A stretch of DNA of 44,993 bases from Kiritimatiellota bacterium (GTDB lineage: Bacteria; Verrucomicrobiota; Lentisphaeria; Oligosphaerales; JAADHN01), in the NCBI GenBank assembly GCA_013151865.1, contig JAADHN010000027.1:1-44993 (forward strand). The letters run 5' to 3'. The translations under genes were made by a program, and so were the position numbers. The notes beneath the pieces are model-generated. The model ran no database searches. It saw only the letters and a list, made by a program, of their open reading frames with translations, and was not told the origin of the DNA. Positions 32,757 to 44,579 of this stretch are shown one piece after another. Numbering within the stretch: the first letter of the stretch is position 1; every line of letters starts with the position of its first letter.

Positions 32757-32864
32757 ATCGTGCTTGTGAACCCGGATCGCACCGCCTCGCAAAGGGGTCG
32801 GCTTCTTCCGATGGGGCCGGGTGCCGTCGTCCTTCTTCGTTCCCACGCGTCGGGGGCCTGCAGA

Positions 32865-35657
32865 ATGGCTTTCATACGTTTTCTCTCGACAGATCTCCCG
32901 GGCCGTTTCGGCCGGGTCTGGACTGCGTGCGTCTTCCTCGCCGGTACGGCTGTGGCCACCGCGGGGTGGGTCGAGGACGCTCCGGGTAAGACGATTATTC
33001 ACGTCAAGCTGTACTGGCTTCCCGACCCGACGCGTACGGACACGGCGACGCGGGCCGACGTGGCCGGAGTCCGTGAGTTCGTGCGCCGGTTCCCGAAGAT
33101 ATTTGCGGCGCGCTACCGGGACAAATACAAAGCCAACCCGGAAAAATACGGCCGGCACGACTGGGACCATGTGGAAATACGTCTCCACAAGTCGTCCGGC
33201 ATCCGGGTGGAAGGGGTGGAGAACGACCTGTTGGCTATTGCCGGCGGTGTGGCTCCCGACGTTCTGTACGTGAATTTTCGCAAGTCGGACACGTACATTA
33301 CCCAGGGCTTCTTGTATCCATTGGACAATCCGGAGGACGGGTATCTGACGTCCATGTCTCAGGAAGAGCAGGACTTCCGTATCCACCCCAAGATTTGGCC
33401 GGTGATCCGCCGGAAAGGGCCGCATGGCGTCAAGCGCGTCTGGGCCATTCCCTACGGCGGGGCCCTGGGCAAAGTCTTGCTCTACCGGAAAGACCTGTTT
33501 GAACAAGCGGGACTGCCTTACCCGACGAACGATTGGACCTGGGACGACTTGTACACGGCCTGCCGGAAGATCACCGATCCCGGGAACGGCGTTTACGGGG
33601 TGCGCTTCGGTCGGGGCAAGCACGAGTCATGGTATTGGATCACGTTCCTCTGGTCTGCGGGCGGAGATATTCTTGTCGAAGACGAAAAGACCGGCAAATG
33701 GCGGGCGGTGTTCGACAGTCCCGAAGCCGCCGTGGCGCTGGATTTCTACACCCGGCTCTGCACCGAACCGTGGTTGGACAAAGATGGACAGAAGCGCTTC
33801 GGCTATGCGTACAAAGAGGCCAGCGAGGCCAGCCAGAAGTGGGACCGCGGCGAAATCGCCATGATGTTCGCCTATATCGACGAGAAGCTCTTTCAGACCA
33901 TCAATCCGGACGTGACCGGGATGGTTCCGGTGCCGAAAGGGCCGACGGGCATACGGGCCGCGGAACTCAACAGCCGCATGATGGGCCTGTTTTCGGACAT
34001 CAAAGACCCGGTCGTCCGGGACGCGGCCTGGGAATACCTGCGTTTCTACGATTGCAAAGATGCCGTGCGCATCAAAACCCGGATCATGGTCGAGGGCGGT
34101 TTGGGGCGTTTCGTCAACCCGAAGTATCTCAACATGTTCGGATACCCGGAGGTGGCGCGCCTGGCGCCGCGGGGCTGGTCGGAGACGTTCAATATCGCCA
34201 TCCGGACCGGAAAGCCGGAGCCCTACGGTCCGAACAGCAATCTGGCCTACAACATCATGACCTACCCGATCCAGGATGCCGAAGACATGGCTCTGAGCGG
34301 GGACTTGCCCAAGTATGTTCCGGGACGCAAGGTGCGTTACAACGAGAAGCGGCTGTCCATCCTGAAGGGGTTGCTCCACAAGGCGGTCCTCAAGGCCAAC
34401 GAAGAGATGCTCCAGGAGTATACGCCCCGGGAGTTGTTCAAACGTCGCGTTTCGGCGGCGGTCCTCCTGGTTGCCATTACCATCACCTTCGCCCTGGTTT
34501 TCCGGTATATCAACAGAGTCTTCAGCGGTCCGGACCTGCCCGCTGGCGTCAGGCGGCCCACTTTCCTCGACGAGTTGCGGCGCTTTCGTTGGGCCTTCGT
34601 CCTGCTGTTGCCGGCGCTGGGGACCATTCTGGTGTGGCGCTATTTTCCATTGCTGCAGGGCTCGATGATGGCGTTCCAGGATTACCGTATTCTCGGCGAT
34701 TCGAGATGGGTGTGGTTGGACAATTTCGGCCACGCACTCTACGATCCGGACTGGTGGGGTTCTGTCTGGAATTCTCTTCGGTACAGCTTCTTGGTGATTG
34801 CCCTGACCTTCCTGCCGCCGGTGATCCTGGCCATCCTGCTCCAGGAAGTCCCCCGGGGCAAGGTGGTGTACCGTACCATCTTCTACCTGCCCGCCGTGAT
34901 CACCGGCCTGGTCATCATTCTGCTCTGGAAATCGTTCTACGAACCCAGTGAGCGCGGGGCCCTGAACGGGATCCTCATGCACATCCCGGCGGCTGCTTAC
35001 CTGGCGGTCGGCCTTGTCCTCTTCCTCATCGCCGTGTCCTTTTCTCGACGTCTGCTCTACCACCGGATTTATGCCGTTGCGATGATCTTTTTCCTGGTCG
35101 GATGCGCCTTGCTCTACACCTGTTACTGCTTGGCCCACCCCATCCTTGCCCGGCCGGGCTTTTCGCTGTTCGCGCGATTGTTCACCCTGCGGCTCGACGT
35201 GCCGTACCGATGGCTCGGGGACCGCGAAACCGCCATGCTCGCCTGCGTGCTGCCGATGGTCTGGGCCGGAATGGGGCCCGGATGCCTCATCTACCTCGCC
35301 GCGCTCAAGGGGATTGCCGACGATTTCTACGAGGCGGCGGACATTGACGGGGCCACGTTCATCGACAAGATCCTCTTCATTGTGTTCCCCATCCTCAAGC
35401 CGCTGCTGATTATCAACTTCGTGGGCGTATTCATCAATTCCTGGCGCTCCACAGCCAACATTCTCGCCATGACCGGCGGAGGCGCCGGCACCGAGGTGGC
35501 CGGGCTGCACATCTTTTACAAGGCCTTTATTTTTCTCAAGTTCGGTCCGGCAACCGCCATGGCCTGGATTCTCGGGTTCATGCTGATTGGGTTCACCGTG
35601 TACCAGCTCCGCATCCTTTCACGTCTCGAATTCCGGACAACGGGGAACAAGACCTGA
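32865..35657 (+). CDS. Fused extracellular sugar-binding protein and ABC permease (MalE-MalF-like)
   Basis: A 930-residue protein combining two parts normally encoded separately. A signal segment (VWTACVFLAGTAVATAG) leads into a family 1 solute-binding protein (about 30-520; GGVAPDVLYVNF, GFLYPLDN, VWAIPYGGALGKVLLYRKDL, NDWTWDDLYTACRKI). At about 527 a membrane helix AAVLLVAITITFALVFRYI starts the MalF-like permease, followed by about six further segments and the EAA loop EAADIDGATFIDKI near residue 825. The binding protein is thus tethered to the outer face of its own permease. The ATG at 32865 has GGGGG eight bases upstream. Stop and next start overlap in ATGA-like fashion (one base). No ATPase gene is in the window, so a shared MsmX/UgpC-like ATPase must be supplied from elsewhere. 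Confidence 0.9.
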   Translation: MAFIRFLSTDLPGRFGRVWTACVFLAGTAVATAGWVEDAPGKTIIHVKLYWLPDPTRTDTATRADVAGVREFVRRFPKIFAARYRDKYKANPEKYGRHDWDHVEIRLHKSSGIRVEGVENDLLAIAGGVAPDVLYVNFRKSDTYITQGFLYPLDNPEDGYLTSMSQEEQDFRIHPKIWPVIRRKGPHGVKRVWAIPYGGALGKVLLYRKDLFEQAGLPYPTNDWTWDDLYTACRKITDPGNGVYGVRFGRGKHESWYWITFLWSAGGDILVEDEKTGKWRAVFDSPEAAVALDFYTRLCTEPWLDKDGQKRFGYAYKEASEASQKWDRGEIAMMFAYIDEKLFQTINPDVTGMVPVPKGPTGIRAAELNSRMMGLFSDIKDPVVRDAAWEYLRFYDCKDAVRIKTRIMVEGGLGRFVNPKYLNMFGYPEVARLAPRGWSETFNIAIRTGKPEPYGPNSNLAYNIMTYPIQDAEDMALSGDLPKYVPGRKVRYNEKRLSILKGLLHKAVLKANEEMLQEYTPRELFKRRVSAAVLLVAITITFALVFRYINRVFSGPDLPAGVRRPTFLDELRRFRWAFVLLLPALGTILVWRYFPLLQGSMMAFQDYRILGDSRWVWLDNFGHALYDPDWWGSVWNSLRYSFLVIALTFLPPVILAILLQEVPRGKVVYRTIFYLPAVITGLVIILLWKSFYEPSERGALNGILMHIPAAAYLAVGLVLFLIAVSFSRRLLYHRIYAVAMIFFLVGCALLYTCYCLAHPILARPGFSLFARLFTLRLDVPYRWLGDRETAMLACVLPMVWAGMGPGCLIYLAALKGIADDFYEAADIDGATFIDKILFIVFPILKPLLIINFVGVFINSWRSTANILAMTGGGAGTEVAGLHIFYKAFIFLKFGPATAMAWILGFMLIGFTVYQLRILSRLEFRTTGNKT

Positions 35658-37660
35658 TGGCCATTATTTCAGAGATCGGGCGAAAGGCCCCCAAAGTCAG
35701 GCTCCTGATCTGGAGCATCTATACCGTGCTGACGCTCGGGGCACTCTCGATGATTTACCCGTTCCTCCTCATGATTTCCGGCAGTATGAAGAGCAGCGTG
35801 GACCTGAAAGACTTCGACGCCGTGCCGAAGTTCCTCTACAGCGATACCGATTTGTACCGGAACCATATCAGCAGATACCTGCAGGGACTGTCCCGCCTTT
35901 TCCATGTCAGCGCCTTTCGACCGGCAGATCCCAACGTACTCTACCGAAAGTATATCGAGGGCTTGTTCAATGAGTCGTTGGACGTGGTGCGGGAAACTTA
36001 CGATATCGAGTTCCGCTCTTTCGAGACGGTCGATCCGCCCGCGACGATCAACCGGGATCGGGTTCGGCTCTGGCATGAATTCCTGAAAGACATCCGGCCG
36101 TCGCAGCTCGCGTCCGCCTGCGGCTTTGTCTCGACCCCGGCCTCCCGGACCGAGCCGGAAATGCTGCGGCGTTTCAAACGTCGTATCATGAAGAAGACCG
36201 AGGGAGATGTGGACGTCGCCAACCGCGAGTACCAGACTCAATTCGTCAACTGGAATGCCTTTTACGTGCTGCCCGAGGACTACCTGCTCCGGCGGAACAA
36301 GCCCAACCCGACCCCGTTCATGCGCGAATTCTGGCAGTTCAAGAGTGAACAGCCGGAAGTCGACATCTATTATTTTTCTGTGAAAGGGTTCTATAAACGC
36401 GTTTTCCTGAAGGCGCAATACACCAAGGAGATCGAGGCTTACAACAAGGCCCATCACACGACATTCGAATCCTGGGACGAGGTCGTGCTCCCCCGTCGTT
36501 ACCCGGCCGAGGCGCCGGGACCGGTGCGCGACGACTGGGAACATTTCGTCCGGAACACGCTCAACCTGCTCTGGGTCCGGGCCAAGCCCGAGGCCGCGCC
36601 GCTCTATCGCGCTTTTCTCAAAGCGAAATACGGCGACATCGGCGCCTTCAAACGCAACTATGGCCCGAAGTTCAATGCCTTGCGCTCGTTCGACGAGGTC
36701 CCTCTTGTCCGAGATCCGCCACTGACCGGCGTCGTGCTCAGTGACTGGGAGGCGTTCCTGACCGGGTGGAAAGACCCGGACACCGGCCGAATGCACATGC
36801 TCCCCGCCTCCATGGTGTACATCCAGTGCCTGGACTTCCAATTCCAGGATTGGCTCATGAAGCGATTCGGGTCGCTTGCGCGGGTCAATGCCGCCTTGGG
36901 CACGAACTACGCCGTTCCGGAGCAGATCGCCATGCCGCAGCGGGAGGCCCACTACGCGGCGTTCCAGGCCAACAAGGGACGCCTCCGCCGCGAGTTTGTC
37001 GTGCGCAATTACGCCACGGTCCTGGATTATCTGGTCTTCCACGGACGCGGTATCATGAACACGGTCATTTACTGCTCCCTGGCCGTACTCTGCGCGCTGT
37101 TGGTCAACCCGTTGGCCGCCTATGCCATGAGTCGCTACAAGATGCCGTCCACCTACAAGATCCTGCTGTTTCTCATGCTGACCATGGCGTTTCCGCCGAT
37201 GGTGACGCAGATCCCGGTTTTCCTGATGCTCCGCAACTTCCATCTGCTGAACACGTTTGCGGCTCTGATCCTCCCGGGGCTCGCCAACGGATATTCGATA
37301 TTCCTGCTCAAAGGTTTCTTCGACTCGCTTCCCAGGGAACTCTACGAGAGTGCGGCGCTCGACGGGGCCGGGGAATGGACCATGTTCTGGCAGATCACCA
37401 TGAGCCTGTCCAAGCCCATTCTGGCCGTGATCGGGTTGAGCGCGTTCACCTTGGCGTATTCCAATTTCATGTTCGCCTTGCTCATTTGCCAGGACGAGAA
37501 GATGTGGACCATGATGGTCTGGCTCTACCAGCTCCAGATGCGCAGCGGTCAGGCAGTGGTCTACGCGTCTCTGATCATTGCCGGGATTCCAACCTTGCTC
37601 ATCTTCGTTTTCGCCCAGAACATCATCATGCGCGGCATCGTGGTGCCGGTCGAGAAATAA
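35657..37660 (+). CDS. MalG-like ABC permease with a ~415-residue extracytoplasmic repeat insert
   Basis: A 667-residue carbohydrate ABC permease, more than twice the usual 280. Segment 1 lies at about 17-41; residues about 45-460 are an insert, and the remaining permease core is at 465-667, with the EAA loop ELYESAALDGAGEWTMFW (561-578). The insert contains five divergent repeats of about 75 residues starting near 96, 172, 246, 317 and 395. Each has a pattern such as YRAFLKAKYGDIGAFKRNYG or WLMKRFGSLARVNAALGTNY, then S-[WF]-x-E-V and a proline, resembling a motif seen in GH42-type glycosidases. It would dock against the fused binding protein of the previous gene, whose stop overlaps this start by one base. 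Binding of long oligosaccharides is inferred. Confidence 0.9.
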   Translation: MAIISEIGRKAPKVRLLIWSIYTVLTLGALSMIYPFLLMISGSMKSSVDLKDFDAVPKFLYSDTDLYRNHISRYLQGLSRLFHVSAFRPADPNVLYRKYIEGLFNESLDVVRETYDIEFRSFETVDPPATINRDRVRLWHEFLKDIRPSQLASACGFVSTPASRTEPEMLRRFKRRIMKKTEGDVDVANREYQTQFVNWNAFYVLPEDYLLRRNKPNPTPFMREFWQFKSEQPEVDIYYFSVKGFYKRVFLKAQYTKEIEAYNKAHHTTFESWDEVVLPRRYPAEAPGPVRDDWEHFVRNTLNLLWVRAKPEAAPLYRAFLKAKYGDIGAFKRNYGPKFNALRSFDEVPLVRDPPLTGVVLSDWEAFLTGWKDPDTGRMHMLPASMVYIQCLDFQFQDWLMKRFGSLARVNAALGTNYAVPEQIAMPQREAHYAAFQANKGRLRREFVVRNYATVLDYLVFHGRGIMNTVIYCSLAVLCALLVNPLAAYAMSRYKMPSTYKILLFLMLTMAFPPMVTQIPVFLMLRNFHLLNTFAALILPGLANGYSIFLLKGFFDSLPRELYESAALDGAGEWTMFWQITMSLSKPILAVIGLSAFTLAYSNFMFALLICQDEKMWTMMVWLYQLQMRSGQAVVYASLIIAGIPTLLIFVFAQNIIMRGIVVPVEK

Positions 37661-39680: not shown

Positions 39681-42600
39681 ATGCGTGCTTGCTCTTTTTG
39701 TCGCGGCGGAACTTCGCTTTTTCTCGGTAATTGGGGCGTGAGCGCCGTTTTCAGTGCCGTCGTCGCGGCGGCGGCGCTCTGCATTTCGGTCGCAGCCGGA
39801 CAGAACGCTCCGGCGAACCTGGTGCGGAACGGCAGTTTCGAAGCGGACGTCGACCGCGACGGCCGCCCCGACGGCTGGCAGCAGAGCGAACACGCGGTGT
39901 TGAAATCGGACGGCCGCAATCGTTGGTTGTTGCTGGACGGTGGAGGCGTGAGTTCCGGCCAGAACATTCCCCTCAAACCGGAATGGTGGCGCCTTACTCT
40001 GAGTATGCGAATGAAAGCCACCGGCGTGGTCCGCGGCAAACAAAGTTGGCAGGACGCGCGCCTGGCCATGGCATTCTACGACAAATCCGGCAAACGGGTC
40101 GGGCCGTGGCCCAATGTCTTCCATGCCGTAGGCACGACGGACTGGATCCAGTGCCGCCGAGATTACTACGTGCCCTGGGGCGCGACGGAACTGCAGTTGG
40201 GGGCGGCGAATTTCGGCCGCGCCGGAACGGCCGAGTTCGATGACATTCGCATCGTCGTCAGCGCCCGTCGTCCGAAAGATCCGACCGACGCCTCACTGCC
40301 GGCAGGCGTGGTCCGGCCCTGGGCGATGGAGTCGGCTTGGCGTCGGGCGAATGCCGCACGTGAGCGGGTCTGCCTGAACGGGCTCTGGCGTTTCGCACCG
40401 GTTGCGACCGAGGAGCACGCCGAAGCGCCGCCGCCCGAAGGCAGAGGCTGGTGGGGCTGGTTCAAGGTGCCGGGGACATGGCCGGGACGTTTGGCGCCGG
40501 ATACGTCCGGGGATGTCCAGGCCGTCCGCTTGTCGCCCTGGTTCTTTCGACTCACCGACAAGACCGGGTTCGATCAGGCATGGTACCGCCGGACCTTTAC
40601 CGCGCCGCCGTCGTGGAAAGGACGCCGCATTCTGCTCGACCCCGGACTGGTACAGACCCATGCCCGGGTCCGGGTGGATGGGCGTGACGCAGGCCGAATA
40701 TGGTTTCCGGGGGGGCGACTCGATCTCACCGATTTTGTCCGCCCCGGCATGGAACAGACTCTGGACATCCTGGTGACGGCCCGGCCGCTGGCCGCGGAGA
40801 GCACGGCCTTCATGGCGCCGGACCGAATCGTGAAGCAGAAAGCGACTGTGCGTTGGAAAGGACTCGTCGGCGATGTGTTCCTCGATGCGGAGCCGGAGCG
40901 TGACGCCATTCAGGCCGTACATGTAATCACTTCGGTGCGCCGGAAGACCATTGCCTTCGAGATCGAACTGGCCCGGGCGAGCGGGACGGTGCGCCGTGCC
41001 ACCGTACGTATCCTCCGCGGGGGAAGGGTGGTGCGACAGTTCGAGTTTCCCCAAGTGCACCCCGGACGGAACGGCGCCGCGCTCCGTTTGGAGGCCCCGT
41101 GGTCCGATCCGGACCTTTGGGACCTGGACACACCCGAGAATCTCTACGACGCAGTGGTAACCCTCGATGATGCGACGGGAGGACTCGTGGACGAATCCCT
41201 CCCGATCCGTTTCGGGTTCCGCGAATTCCGGATCCAGGGCCGGGACTTCTATTTGAACGATTCGCCCATTCACCTCCGGGCCCTGTTGTCGCGCAATATC
41301 AATTCCGCAGCGGACAAGGCCGACCGTGCCGGCGGCGTTCGCACCTGTCGTCGGCTTAAGGCGTACGGGTTCAATTTCCTTATCACCTCGAATTACAACT
41401 TTGCCCCGGGGGCGGTGAGCTACATGAACGGCCTGCTGGAAGCCGCGGACACCACCGGATATCTGGTTTCGTTTTCTCTGCCCCATGTCAAGGACTTCAA
41501 CTGGAATCTGAGCGCCCCGGACCAACGCGCCCGTTACCGGGCCATCGCCCGTTGGATCATCCGTCGCGTTTGGAATCATCCCAGCGTTGCGACCTACGCC
41601 ATGAATCACAATGCCTGCGGGTACTTCGGGGACCAGAATCCCCTTAAGATCGACGGACGCTACGACCCGGACACCGTCGCCGGCAGGCCGCCCCGGCGCA
41701 GTCGGGCCCAGGCCCGGATCGCCGCCGGGATTGTCGAGGCCATAGATCCCACTCGGCCCGTCTACCATCACCAGTCCGGCAATCTCGGGGAGATGCACAC
41801 CGTCAACATCTACCTGAACTGGGCCCCCCGCCGCGAGCGCAGCAATTGGCTCGAACATTGGGCGACCACCGGAACCAAGCCGGTCTTCTTCGTCGAGTGG
41901 GGATTGCCGCACATTTCCTCGTGGTCAAGTTACCGCGGCCCGCGATTCATCTGGCGGTACGCTGCCTTCCAGCGACTGTGGGACAGCGAATTCGCCGCGG
42001 CGATCAAAGGCGAAGGCGCTTATCGTATGACGAAGATCAAACAGCAGTCCCTCGATTTGGAGGAGCGGCTGTGGGCGACGGGCAAGCCGTTTCATTGGTA
42101 TGAGTTGATACGATACTTGCGCGGTCGGGAAGAGGACCACCTCGACATCAAGGCGTGGTTTGCCGCCGACAATTGGCGCTCGCACCGCACGTGGGGTGCT
42201 TCCGCCATGCTGCCCTGGGACCAGGGCGGTTTTTGGACGCGGGTGAAAGAGACCCCGCCCACCGACAACCCCGCCGCCTTCAAGAACCTCCAACAGCCGG
42301 GCATTGTCCCGGACCGTTTTTTGGCCGGCGATCAGTACATCGACGACACCGGTTCGGAATCGAATTTCGAGCCCACGATCCTGGGCCGTACGTTCCTGCG
42401 CTGGAACCGACCGGTGATTGCCTACATTGCGGGCAAGCCGGGAGAGTTCACGGAACGGAGCGGCAATTTCCGGCCGGGCGAAACGGTCCGCAAGCAACTG
42501 ATCGTCGTCAACGACTCCCGGCGCACGTTGGAATGCCGGTGGTCGTGGCGGTTCGTATCCGGCGGACCCCGGGCGCACGGCGCCGTCAGGGTCCGGCCGG

Positions 42601-44579
42601 GCGAACGGGCGTCGGTCCCGATAGCGATCCCATTGTCGCCGGATGCCCCGGCCGGTCGTCGACGCATCGAAGCACGGTTCGACTTCGATCACGGTCTGAA
42701 GTCGCAACAGGACGCAATGGACGTATTTCTGCTGCCGGTACGCACCGCCGACAGGAGTGGTGCGGCGACGCGACGCGTGGTCCTGTTCGATCCCAAGGGG
42801 TTGACCTCCAAACTCCTCCAGCGCCTGGGCGTGTCGTTCGAGTCGGTGCGGGCCGAGGCCGTGAGCCAACTATCGCCTGCTCTAACTCTGCTCGTCATCG
42901 GGCGCGAAGCCCTCGGGTCGGACGACCCGAGCCTCGAGCTGTCGGCGGTGCCGAAGGGGTTGAACGTACTCGTGTTCGAACAGTCCGCCAAGACCCTGGC
43001 CGACCGTTTCGGGTTCCGGATCAATGTGCATGGCCTGCGCCGGGTCTTCCTGCGAACCCGGCATCCCGGCCTGTCCGGCATCCGACCGGAAATGCTCGAA
43101 AACTGGCGAGGCAAGGCCACGCTCACTCCCCCGTACCTCGATGTGCCCGCAGTGGAAAACGGCAACCCGAAATGGAAATGGTGCGGGTTCGAGAACACCC
43201 GTGTCTGGCGCTGCGGCAACGAGGGCAATGTGGCCTCCGTGTTGATCGAGAAGCCGCCGCGGGGCAACTGGCTGCCGCTTGTCGACGGCGGCTTCGACCT
43301 GCAGTATGCGCCCCTGCTCGAATACCGCGAGGGCAAGGGACGGATCGTGTTCTGTCAACTCGACGTCACCGGGCGTACCGAGCCGGATCCCGCGGCGGAT
43401 CGGCTCTGTCGAAACCTGCTCCTCGACCTGACGCAACGGGCACAGACAGGTGCGCTCGAACGGGCGATGTCCTCCAAACGCGTTTTCGTGCTGGGGGACG
43501 GCCGGGGGCGGCGTTTACTCGAGACCTTGGGCGTGCTTTTCACGCCCGGTTACGATCCGTCCGCATCGGACGCAGTGCTGGTGGTGGGGCCCGGAGCAAA
43601 ACCCCCCGTGAATTTCACCGACGCCGTGAGGAAGAATGGGTTGCGGGTGCTGTGCCTCGGCCTCGGCGCCCGCGAACTGGAACGGCTGTTGCCCGGGATG
43701 ACGACGGCGAAACGGGTGGAGAGTACGTCCGACCTGTTCCGGCCCTCGGGCAGGACGGTCGATCCGGCCCTGGCCGGGATTTCCGCTGCGGAACTGCACT
43801 GGCGGACGAAACTGGCTTACACCGCAGTGAGTCGACCGGGTGCGCCCGGGGCGCCGGCCTTGCGTGTACTTCGTCTCGGGCGCGGTGTGGTGGTCCTGAA
43901 CCAAGCCCCGCCCTGGATGTTCGATTCGAGAGAAAAGCCGTACTTGCGGACCACCTCCCGCCGCAGCGTCTTTCTGGCGGCACGCCTTCTGGCGAACTTG
44001 GGCGTCGCGTTTCGGACTCCGGTGATTGAGCGATTCCGTTCGCCCCCCGGGCCCTGGATGCTGTCCCTGAACGCAGGTTGGAAAGGCCGTGCGGATCCGG
44101 ACGATTCCGGACGTGAAGGCGGGTGGCAGCGGCCCGGTTTCGCGGACTCCGCATGGCAGGCCATTCATGTGGGCGCCACGTTCGAGTCCCAGCGCCCGAA
44201 ACTGAAAGACTTCAACGGTGCGTTCTGGTACCGCCTGCACTTCCGGGTCCCGGCGAGCTTCGTCCGGCGTGGGGTGCGACTGTGGCTCGGACCGGTGGAC
44301 GACGAGTCGTGGGTCTGGCTCAACGGGAAGTTCCTGGGGCAGGTCACCAAGAAGACGCGGCCCAAAGACTATTGGGTGTTCCCGCGCGAGTATGCGCTCG
44401 ATCGCGGCTGGCTGAACCCCGACGGGGAGAACGTATTGGTTGTCCGCGTAAACGACACCTACCAAACCGGCGGCATGATGGGTACGCCTTATCTGGCCGT
44501 GCCCGCGCCTTGGCTGGATTCTTATTACGTGCAGAAACCGGAGTCGGTGGACGATCCGTATCGCTACTATCGGTGGTGA
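39681..44579 (+). CDS. Secreted GH2-like giant protein with altered acid/base site
   Basis: A 1632-residue exported protein. A signal segment (SAVFSAVVAAAALCISVAAG) is followed by a binding module starting LVRNGSFEADVDRDG, then GH2-type parts: jelly-roll (about 215-400; CLNGLWRF, AWYRRTF), Ig-like (400-510) and TIM barrel (about 515-850; FYLNDSPIHLRALL). In the barrel NHPSVATYAMNHN (632-644) aligns with the NHPS-x-x-x-W-x-x-GNE acid/base motif, so the Glu is Asn644, while VEWG keeps the likely nucleophile Glu739. After the barrel lie two copies of an alpha/beta amidotransferase-like domain (about 1030-1250 and 1267-1430), and a C-terminal galactose-binding-like module (about 1457-1600; DESWVWLNGKFLGQ). 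It may be a beta-galactosidase relative with unusual catalysis or a binding protein. Ten bases separate it from the previous gene; GAGG precedes the ATG. Confidence 0.85.
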   Translation: MRACSFCRGGTSLFLGNWGVSAVFSAVVAAAALCISVAAGQNAPANLVRNGSFEADVDRDGRPDGWQQSEHAVLKSDGRNRWLLLDGGGVSSGQNIPLKPEWWRLTLSMRMKATGVVRGKQSWQDARLAMAFYDKSGKRVGPWPNVFHAVGTTDWIQCRRDYYVPWGATELQLGAANFGRAGTAEFDDIRIVVSARRPKDPTDASLPAGVVRPWAMESAWRRANAARERVCLNGLWRFAPVATEEHAEAPPPEGRGWWGWFKVPGTWPGRLAPDTSGDVQAVRLSPWFFRLTDKTGFDQAWYRRTFTAPPSWKGRRILLDPGLVQTHARVRVDGRDAGRIWFPGGRLDLTDFVRPGMEQTLDILVTARPLAAESTAFMAPDRIVKQKATVRWKGLVGDVFLDAEPERDAIQAVHVITSVRRKTIAFEIELARASGTVRRATVRILRGGRVVRQFEFPQVHPGRNGAALRLEAPWSDPDLWDLDTPENLYDAVVTLDDATGGLVDESLPIRFGFREFRIQGRDFYLNDSPIHLRALLSRNINSAADKADRAGGVRTCRRLKAYGFNFLITSNYNFAPGAVSYMNGLLEAADTTGYLVSFSLPHVKDFNWNLSAPDQRARYRAIARWIIRRVWNHPSVATYAMNHNACGYFGDQNPLKIDGRYDPDTVAGRPPRRSRAQARIAAGIVEAIDPTRPVYHHQSGNLGEMHTVNIYLNWAPRRERSNWLEHWATTGTKPVFFVEWGLPHISSWSSYRGPRFIWRYAAFQRLWDSEFAAAIKGEGAYRMTKIKQQSLDLEERLWATGKPFHWYELIRYLRGREEDHLDIKAWFAADNWRSHRTWGASAMLPWDQGGFWTRVKETPPTDNPAAFKNLQQPGIVPDRFLAGDQYIDDTGSESNFEPTILGRTFLRWNRPVIAYIAGKPGEFTERSGNFRPGETVRKQLIVVNDSRRTLECRWSWRFVSGGPRAHGAVRVRPGERASVPIAIPLSPDAPAGRRRIEARFDFDHGLKSQQDAMDVFLLPVRTADRSGAATRRVVLFDPKGLTSKLLQRLGVSFESVRAEAVSQLSPALTLLVIGREALGSDDPSLELSAVPKGLNVLVFEQSAKTLADRFGFRINVHGLRRVFLRTRHPGLSGIRPEMLENWRGKATLTPPYLDVPAVENGNPKWKWCGFENTRVWRCGNEGNVASVLIEKPPRGNWLPLVDGGFDLQYAPLLEYREGKGRIVFCQLDVTGRTEPDPAADRLCRNLLLDLTQRAQTGALERAMSSKRVFVLGDGRGRRLLETLGVLFTPGYDPSASDAVLVVGPGAKPPVNFTDAVRKNGLRVLCLGLGARELERLLPGMTTAKRVESTSDLFRPSGRTVDPALAGISAAELHWRTKLAYTAVSRPGAPGAPALRVLRLGRGVVVLNQAPPWMFDSREKPYLRTTSRRSVFLAARLLANLGVAFRTPVIERFRSPPGPWMLSLNAGWKGRADPDDSGREGGWQRPGFADSAWQAIHVGATFESQRPKLKDFNGAFWYRLHFRVPASFVRRGVRLWLGPVDDESWVWLNGKFLGQVTKKTRPKDYWVFPREYALDRGWLNPDGENVLVVRVNDTYQTGGMMGTPYLAVPAPWLDSYYVQKPESVDDPYRYYRW

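Follow-up and report, generated by a model that had tools for sequence, protein, structure and literature searches.

The window analysed here, a 44,993-nucleotide stretch of contig JAADHN010000027.1 from a Kiritimatiellota bacterium, encodes a sugar importer of the ABC type, whose MalG-type permease carries an array of five repeats related to a segment of GH42 glycosidases. The array is inserted between the first two transmembrane helices, and the permease is encoded next to a fusion of the sugar-binding protein with MalF. With confidence that is about evenly balanced, we propose that the array is a periplasmic scaffold to which the tethered binding protein would dock.

A large insert in a MalG-type permease

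The permease was assigned to the MalG type by a Pfam match to BPD_transp_1 (PF00528, residues 487-660, E 1.4e-14), the EAA coupling motif ESAALDGAGEW starting at residue 564 of its sequence, and the best PDB matches of its model in Foldseek, the MalG chains 3rlf_G and 2r6g_G (TM-score 0.6 of target). The start codon of the permease gene and the stop codon of the fusion gene overlap. In the AlphaFold2 (AF2) model, calculated from an alignment of 58 sequences, the helices of the transmembrane domain span residues 12-42, 463-493, 499-508, 514-527, 545-557, 586-602 and 632-666. The topology is that of six transmembrane helices with an insert of ~400 residues between TM1 and TM2 (residues ~43-462, window ~35783-37042; Table 1). 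By homology to MalG, this loop should be periplasmic, in agreement with the ectodomain placement given in a preliminary description of the sequence. An insertion artefact or a frameshift as the source of the array was ruled out, as the reading frame stays intact in scores of homologues belonging to other families and phyla.

A shorter insertion of 29 residues (65-93) is absent from order-level relatives as well and resembles an incomplete duplicate of the beginning of R1. Two further MalG-type permeases of the same genome (L007:235-2163:+ and L011:1483-2802:-) have different, seemingly beta-rich insertions between TM1 and TM2, so that this loop looks like a general insertion site for ectodomains.

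Table 1. Positions of the permease, its repeat units and the fusion partner in the window.
Feature	Position	Strand	Basis
Fusion gene: signal peptide, sugar-binding protein, tether TM and MalF (965 aa)	32760..35657	+	Pfam
Tether TM between binding protein and MalF core, fusion residues 563-581	34446..34502	+	hydropathy
Extra two-TM hairpin in MalF, fusion residues 742-788	34983..35123	+	hydropathy, homologue comparison
malG-type permease gene with periplasmic repeat array	35657..37660	+	ORF, 667 aa
TM1 of MalG, residues 12-42	35690..35782	+	AF2 helix 12-42; hydropathy peak 16-34
29-residue insertion, residues 65-93	35849..35935	+	gap in 98% of homologues; pLDDT 63-70
Repeat R1, residues 94-155 (HMM core 96-144)	35936..36121	+	profile comparison, unit HMM, AF2
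Repeat R2, residues 168-239 (HMM core 173-219)	36158..36373	+	profile comparison, unit HMM, AF2
Repeat R3, residues 242-309 (HMM core 248-303)	36380..36583	+	profile comparison, unit HMM, AF2, Pfam GH42
Repeat R4, residues 311-389 (HMM core 317-373)	36587..36823	+	profile comparison, unit HMM, AF2
Repeat R5, residues 392-438 (HMM core 396-453), with linking helix 440-461	36830..37039	+	profile comparison, HMM, AF2
TM2-TM6 of MalG including EAA motif	37043..37657	+	sequence; identity to homologues

The insert consists of five homologous units

The preliminary description had read five repeats of ~75 residues into the MalG-like permease, and profile comparison, a unit HMM and the pattern of the AF2 model all bear this out, with five units of ~70-77 residues. 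For the profile-profile comparison, the homologue alignment was cut into five segments and set against 100 column-shuffled controls. Nine of the ten pairs scored 15-51 against 11.6 for the best shuffled control, R1/R5 reaching 9.8, and the repeats therefore withstood the self-comparison by which the earlier claim could have fallen. The unit HMM, which was seeded with four units of the window and then iterated, gave 400 hits in 86 real proteins, compared with five weak hits, none above 10.5 bits, in 1,720 shuffled arrays (20 x 86) and no hit in the reversed proteins. It located the repeat starts at residues 96, 173, 248, 317 and 396, almost exactly where they had been proposed (96, 172, 246, 317 and 395).

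The HMM hits also contain the shared motif as it had been described (Y/F...L...N...T-x-F...S-[WF]-x-E-V-x-x-P), more fully written as F/Y...L...Y...I...N..x-G-T-x-F-x-S-F/W-x-E-V-x-x-P, with the unit consensus FrkyLearYngdiaalNralgTdfasfnevplPqry...ldWeffvr. The D-W-x-x-F-[LV] element said to follow this motif holds for part of the array: it is evident in R3 and R4 and incomplete in R1 (LWHEFL) and R2 (REFWQF), whereas R5 has LRREFVVRNY in its place. R1 is the most diverged of the five units. No repeat was found in the array at the DNA level, which indicates that the duplication is old.

The residues conserved in every unit are mainly core positions of the small fold. Invariant residues outside the core are K98, E101, N105, E106, R212, R299, E446, R450 and N451; in the helix linking the array to TM2 (440-461), E446, F447, R450 and N451 are near-invariant.

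Predicted structure of the array

The AF2 model reached a mean pLDDT of 92.0 and a pTM of 0.88, with pLDDT values of 94-98 in the array. R1 to R4 share a pattern of helix A (10-15 residues), helix B (~8), a 3-residue 310 helix, helix C (11-14) and a terminal 3-residue strand (153-155, 237-239, 307-309 and 387-389), while R5 is composed of three helices, after which the linking helix continues into TM2. The insert is hence a tandem repeat protein, built of homologous units with a common secondary structure, and the structure prediction, which had also been named as a possible refutation, shows a repeating pattern. The units may stack as a solenoid. In this single model, both the fold of the array and its placement on the transmembrane domain are predicted with confidence. 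A sequence search of the PDB with the whole array returned no significant match. Among the 50 Foldseek matches listed for the confident model, the transmembrane domain alone was matched, and an earlier low-confidence model gave no reliable match.

The repeat unit is related to the beta4-alpha4 segment of GH42

Resemblance to a GH42 motif had been noted at the outset. The relationship to GH42 was confirmed by Pfam: the window protein matches PF02449 at model positions 155-214 of 376 (E 5.7e-10; 39.5 bits, cut-off 21), and 51 of 58 homologues match it at E<=0.01. The resemblance is more than that of a look-alike pattern: the units are truly homologous to a single segment of the enzyme, the elaborated beta4-alpha4 portion of its barrel. 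The significant match falls on R3. When the units were scanned singly, GH42 was recovered with R3 (E 2.9e-5) and weakly with R4 (E 0.035) and R5 (E 0.038), and GH14 with R5 (E 0.0074). Single scans of R1 and R2 against Pfam gave no support for GH42, and the membership of these two units rests on the profile comparison. The R3 profile alone hit only GH42 structures in the PDB, weakly but in the same segment (E 0.1-0.5). Among the ORFs of all fetched loci, the unit HMM detected 15 outside the MalG proteins, with one copy each and all from GH42-match loci of this genome; in several of these GH42 enzymes, the unit directly follows the beta4 N-E motif. GH14 beta-amylases share weak matches to the helix-loop motif (Pfam in 5/58 homologues; weak Foldseek matches), but there it is a single segment within the enzyme.

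The structure 8ibr (chain of 702 residues), which we take to be BiBga42A as its numbering fits E160, W200 and F221, allowed a comparison at residue level. Here, E160 is the acid/base, and Trp-200 and Phe-221 of the beta4-alpha4 segment contact the sugar. In GH42 enzymes, this segment extends into the active site of the adjacent subunit and is located at the trimer interface. In 8ibr, AQRMNNFSEIIPPR comes directly after residue 200 and is followed by ...GNF(221)...DWKRF.

The permease units share with GH42 a module of ~60 residues (Y, G, N, G-T, F, F-x-E-V/I, P, D-W-x-x-F) and have kept its core, namely F, L, Y, I, N, G-T, F, F/W-x-E-V, P and W..F. In contrast to GH42, they are tandem copies in a membrane protein. 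Neither catalytic Glu is present, since the matched segment starts after the acid/base E160 and the nucleophile region is missing, and no N-E motif precedes the units in the permease sequence. The AF2 model shows short repeated units without barrel elements instead of a complete (beta/alpha)8 barrel. In the alignment of the R3 profile to the PDB, the stretch holding Trp-200 (FWSQR) is deleted from the permease units, and none of the five has a conserved aromatic residue at the position of Phe-221. With the core kept and the enzymatic and known sugar-contacting features gone, the array is best described as a tandem amplification of a glycosidase sub-module.

These losses bear on the glycan-guiding funnel of the preliminary description, in which the array would bind glycan chains and guide them to the binding protein or the translocation path. 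A role of this kind would suit an importer of sugars whose genome contains dozens of GH42-like matches, the more so as the homologous GH42 part contacts sugar in the active site of a neighbouring subunit (Trp-200 and Phe-221 of BiBga42A) and every unit keeps the aromatic residue in T-x-[FY]. What is left, however, is a ~60-residue GH42 piece that lacks the catalytic Glu and counterparts of both sugar-contacting residues; the positions conserved across all units belong to the fold core, and besides the GH42 segment Pfam finds no carbohydrate-binding module. The funnel thus found no support, and we regard it as unlikely.

Co-occurrence of the array with an SBP-MalF fusion

The partner upstream of the permease combines a binding protein (SBP_bac_1, E 6.7e-24) with a MalF-type permease (BPD_transp_1, E 1.6e-6). 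At the site where E. coli MalF carries its P2 domain, this MalF has a loop of only ~38 residues. The extra hairpin in MalF lies between core TM3 and TM4 and has an Arg-rich turn in the fusion homologues displayed. In the loci L043 and L044, MalG itself has a hydrophobic hairpin-like insertion at the place pseudo-symmetric to the MalF hairpin.

Among 289 Verrucomicrobiota genomes, 75 encode the array and 79 the fusion. All 75 array-bearing genomes have both, no genome has the array without the fusion, and four have the fusion without a detected array (Fisher p ~4e-65, a value that is no true probability, as the genomes are related). The tethered binding protein, which had been suggested as the partner of the array, is therefore present in every one of these genomes. 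Since the array is found across the phylum only where the fusion occurs, it probably holds the binding protein in place. The fusion lies within the same locus as the array MalG in 63 of the 80 loci listed, and many of the remaining loci are at contig edges. For the unlinked cases, nine of ten genomes carry the fusion elsewhere, and the remaining one is a 2.1 Mb assembly. A strict adjacency of array MalG and fusion was ruled out: the two are unlinked in some lineages, several of which have a helicase gene in between. In the R1-R2-R3-R5 lineage (L139, L143 and L134; Kiritimatiellae/Verrucomicrobia-type MAGs), a helicase-like ATPase gene is directly upstream of MalG, which in L139 and L143 places it between the fusion and MalG.

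No conserved neighbour other than the fusion was found in the 80 loci listed, nor any clue to the substrate. This argues against a third reading, in which the array recruits another periplasmic partner, such as a glycan-degrading enzyme, peptidoglycan or an outer-membrane uptake protein, and would thereby couple breakdown to import, because no candidate is shared between the loci. The GH42 module does sit at a protein-protein interface in the enzyme trimer, repeat arrays often act as protein-binding surfaces, and the genome is rich in GH42-like enzymes; still, we give this reading only a small chance. Downstream of the importer, the window encodes a 1632-aa secreted GH2-like protein with sugar-binding domains (39681-44579; PF02837, PF00703 and BetaGal_ABD2), which is not conserved beside this importer in other genomes. 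A single MalK-type ATPase (OB_MalK, locus L147) was found for eleven MalG loci in the source genome, which suggests that these share one ATPase.

Distribution and conservation of the array family

Array MalGs are present in 75 of the 289 sampled Verrucomicrobiota genomes, and the genome scan gave at least 80 loci. The 80 loci listed include MAG records of Lentisphaerae, Kiritimatiellae, Verrucomicrobia, Phycisphaerae, Planctomycetota, Armatimonadetes, Gemmatimonadetes and Latescibacterota and the isolate Oligosphaera ethanolica DSM 24202. With position-specific profiles, the order R1-R2-R3-R4-R5 was found in 62 proteins (including those that trained the profiles) and R1-R2-R3-R5 in 10, whereas five proteins have a duplicated R4 and two an R3-R4-R3-R4 duplication. 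The array thus has four, five, six or seven units. In the unit tree, R1, R2 and R3 each form one cross-species clade, R4 nearly does, and R5 does not do so cleanly. Judged from these sequences, each unit position appears orthologous across the family within one fixed architecture. Together with the variation by whole units, this indicates that the array is older than the spread of the family and was later changed by entire units.

Compared with homologues from other families and phyla, the proteins of the window have a mean identity of 81% in TM2-6, 65% in the MalF core, 64% in the binding protein and 38-49% in the units, and even this last value across phyla points to a constrained array sequence. 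Both the differing unit number (R1-R2-R3-R5, five, six or seven) and the lower conservation would be expected of a structural brace or spacer that serves assembly or stability or raises the tethered binding protein, without a specific docking role, and the prediction of array and transmembrane domain as one rigid body (pTM 0.88) is in line with it. The near-invariant charged residues outside the core and the orthologous, non-interchangeable unit positions suggest more than spacing, however, and we consider a mere brace improbable.

The source genome has nine array-less MalG loci, from which the TM tree separates the array MalGs as a single clade (modest support, 0.67). A paralogous importer of the same genome (L002:1501-3564:+, contig C78) has a diverged array in which about three units can be recognised, and a MalF is encoded upstream of it in an open frame of 967 aa; with its relatives L042 and L046 this importer forms a separate branch of the TM tree. 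In three Oligosphaeraceae-type loci (L031:778-2988, L033:384-2600 and L120:384-2600), R1 contains an insertion with two CPxC-type pairs (RCPKCETWF...HQASCPKCQQ), which is zinc-ribbon-like.

A proposed docking scaffold on MalG

In E. coli MalFGK2, the P2 domain of MalF is located between TM3 and TM4 and contacts MalE during the transport cycle. MalF and MalG are related by pseudo-two-fold symmetry, and the MalG loop between TM1 and TM2 is what we take to be the counterpart of MalF-P2. The interaction of P2 with the binding protein throughout the cycle, and the damping of P2 motion by bound MalE, are described in PMC8134467 and by Daus et al. (2009; from the listing in PMC3328499).

Based on the array in MalG at the P2-matching site, the ~38-residue loop in MalF and the strict co-occurrence with the fusion, a relocated docking scaffold is the best reading. 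The five GH42-derived modules of the beta-alpha type would stack into an elongated rigid domain between TM1 and TM2 and offer a surface on which the tethered binding protein docks and is kept in position above the translocation path; the array would then take over the job of the P2 domain missing from this MalF. The confident fold and placement in one AF2 model, the constraint with its invariant non-core residues, the fixed architecture of orthologous positions and, with modest support, the separate clade of the array MalGs are consistent with this scaffold. On the other hand, the transmembrane tether alone could make a docking domain unnecessary. The array is less conserved (38-49%) than the binding protein (64%) or the transmembrane core (81%), and the variable unit number makes a strict one-to-one interface less certain. 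The array resembles MalF-P2 in that both are large periplasmic domains at pseudo-symmetric sites of the two permease halves, and the array would likewise work with the binding protein. It differs in being part of MalG and in its fold, which is built of helical repeats that include short strands, whereas P2 is Ig-like. The two were not found to be related in sequence.

Large inserts at this place of MalG are already known. The Thermotogales proteins MalG1 and MalG2 have a hydrophilic region of ~500 residues between TM1 and TM2, reported in 2008 to resemble no known protein (Noll et al., 2008, PMC2246101). Compared by their description (PMC2246101), they share the position of the insert with the importer presented here, but their binding protein is encoded by a separate gene, so such an insert need not imply a tethered binding protein. 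The importer shares its MalG-type core (Foldseek 3rlf_G and 8hps_B), the EAA motif, a sugar-type binding protein (SBP_bac_1) and a MalK-type ATPase, of which the source genome has one, with CUT1 importers such as E. coli MalFGK2 and M. tuberculosis LpqY-SugABC. It differs from them by the ~400-residue MalG array, the fusion of the binding protein to MalF via a transmembrane segment, the extra MalF hairpin and the lack of P2. We therefore consider it a CUT1 importer with a new ectodomain. In agreement with the preliminary description, which knew of no earlier account, we found none of a GH42-derived array or of its bond to an SBP-MalF fusion in the open-licence literature.

More tentatively, a GH42 beta4-alpha4 fragment may have been amplified into a new alpha/beta repeat fold on the permease, have replaced the docking function of MalF-P2 from the opposite subunit and have enabled, or become required by, a binding protein built into the channel, giving a new, phylum-spanning class of carbohydrate ABC importers. 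The finding would illustrate how duplication of a small part of an enzyme barrel can give rise to a repeat domain. A class of importers would also be defined by it, conserved from Lentisphaeria and Kiritimatiellae to planctomycete MAGs, with a permanently tethered binding protein and a new periplasmic domain on MalG. For annotation, a GH42 Pfam match in these permeases does not denote an enzyme. Finally, the system offers a natural test of the purpose of MalF-P2, namely whether a docking domain is still needed once the binding protein is tethered, and what follows when this domain moves to the other permease half.
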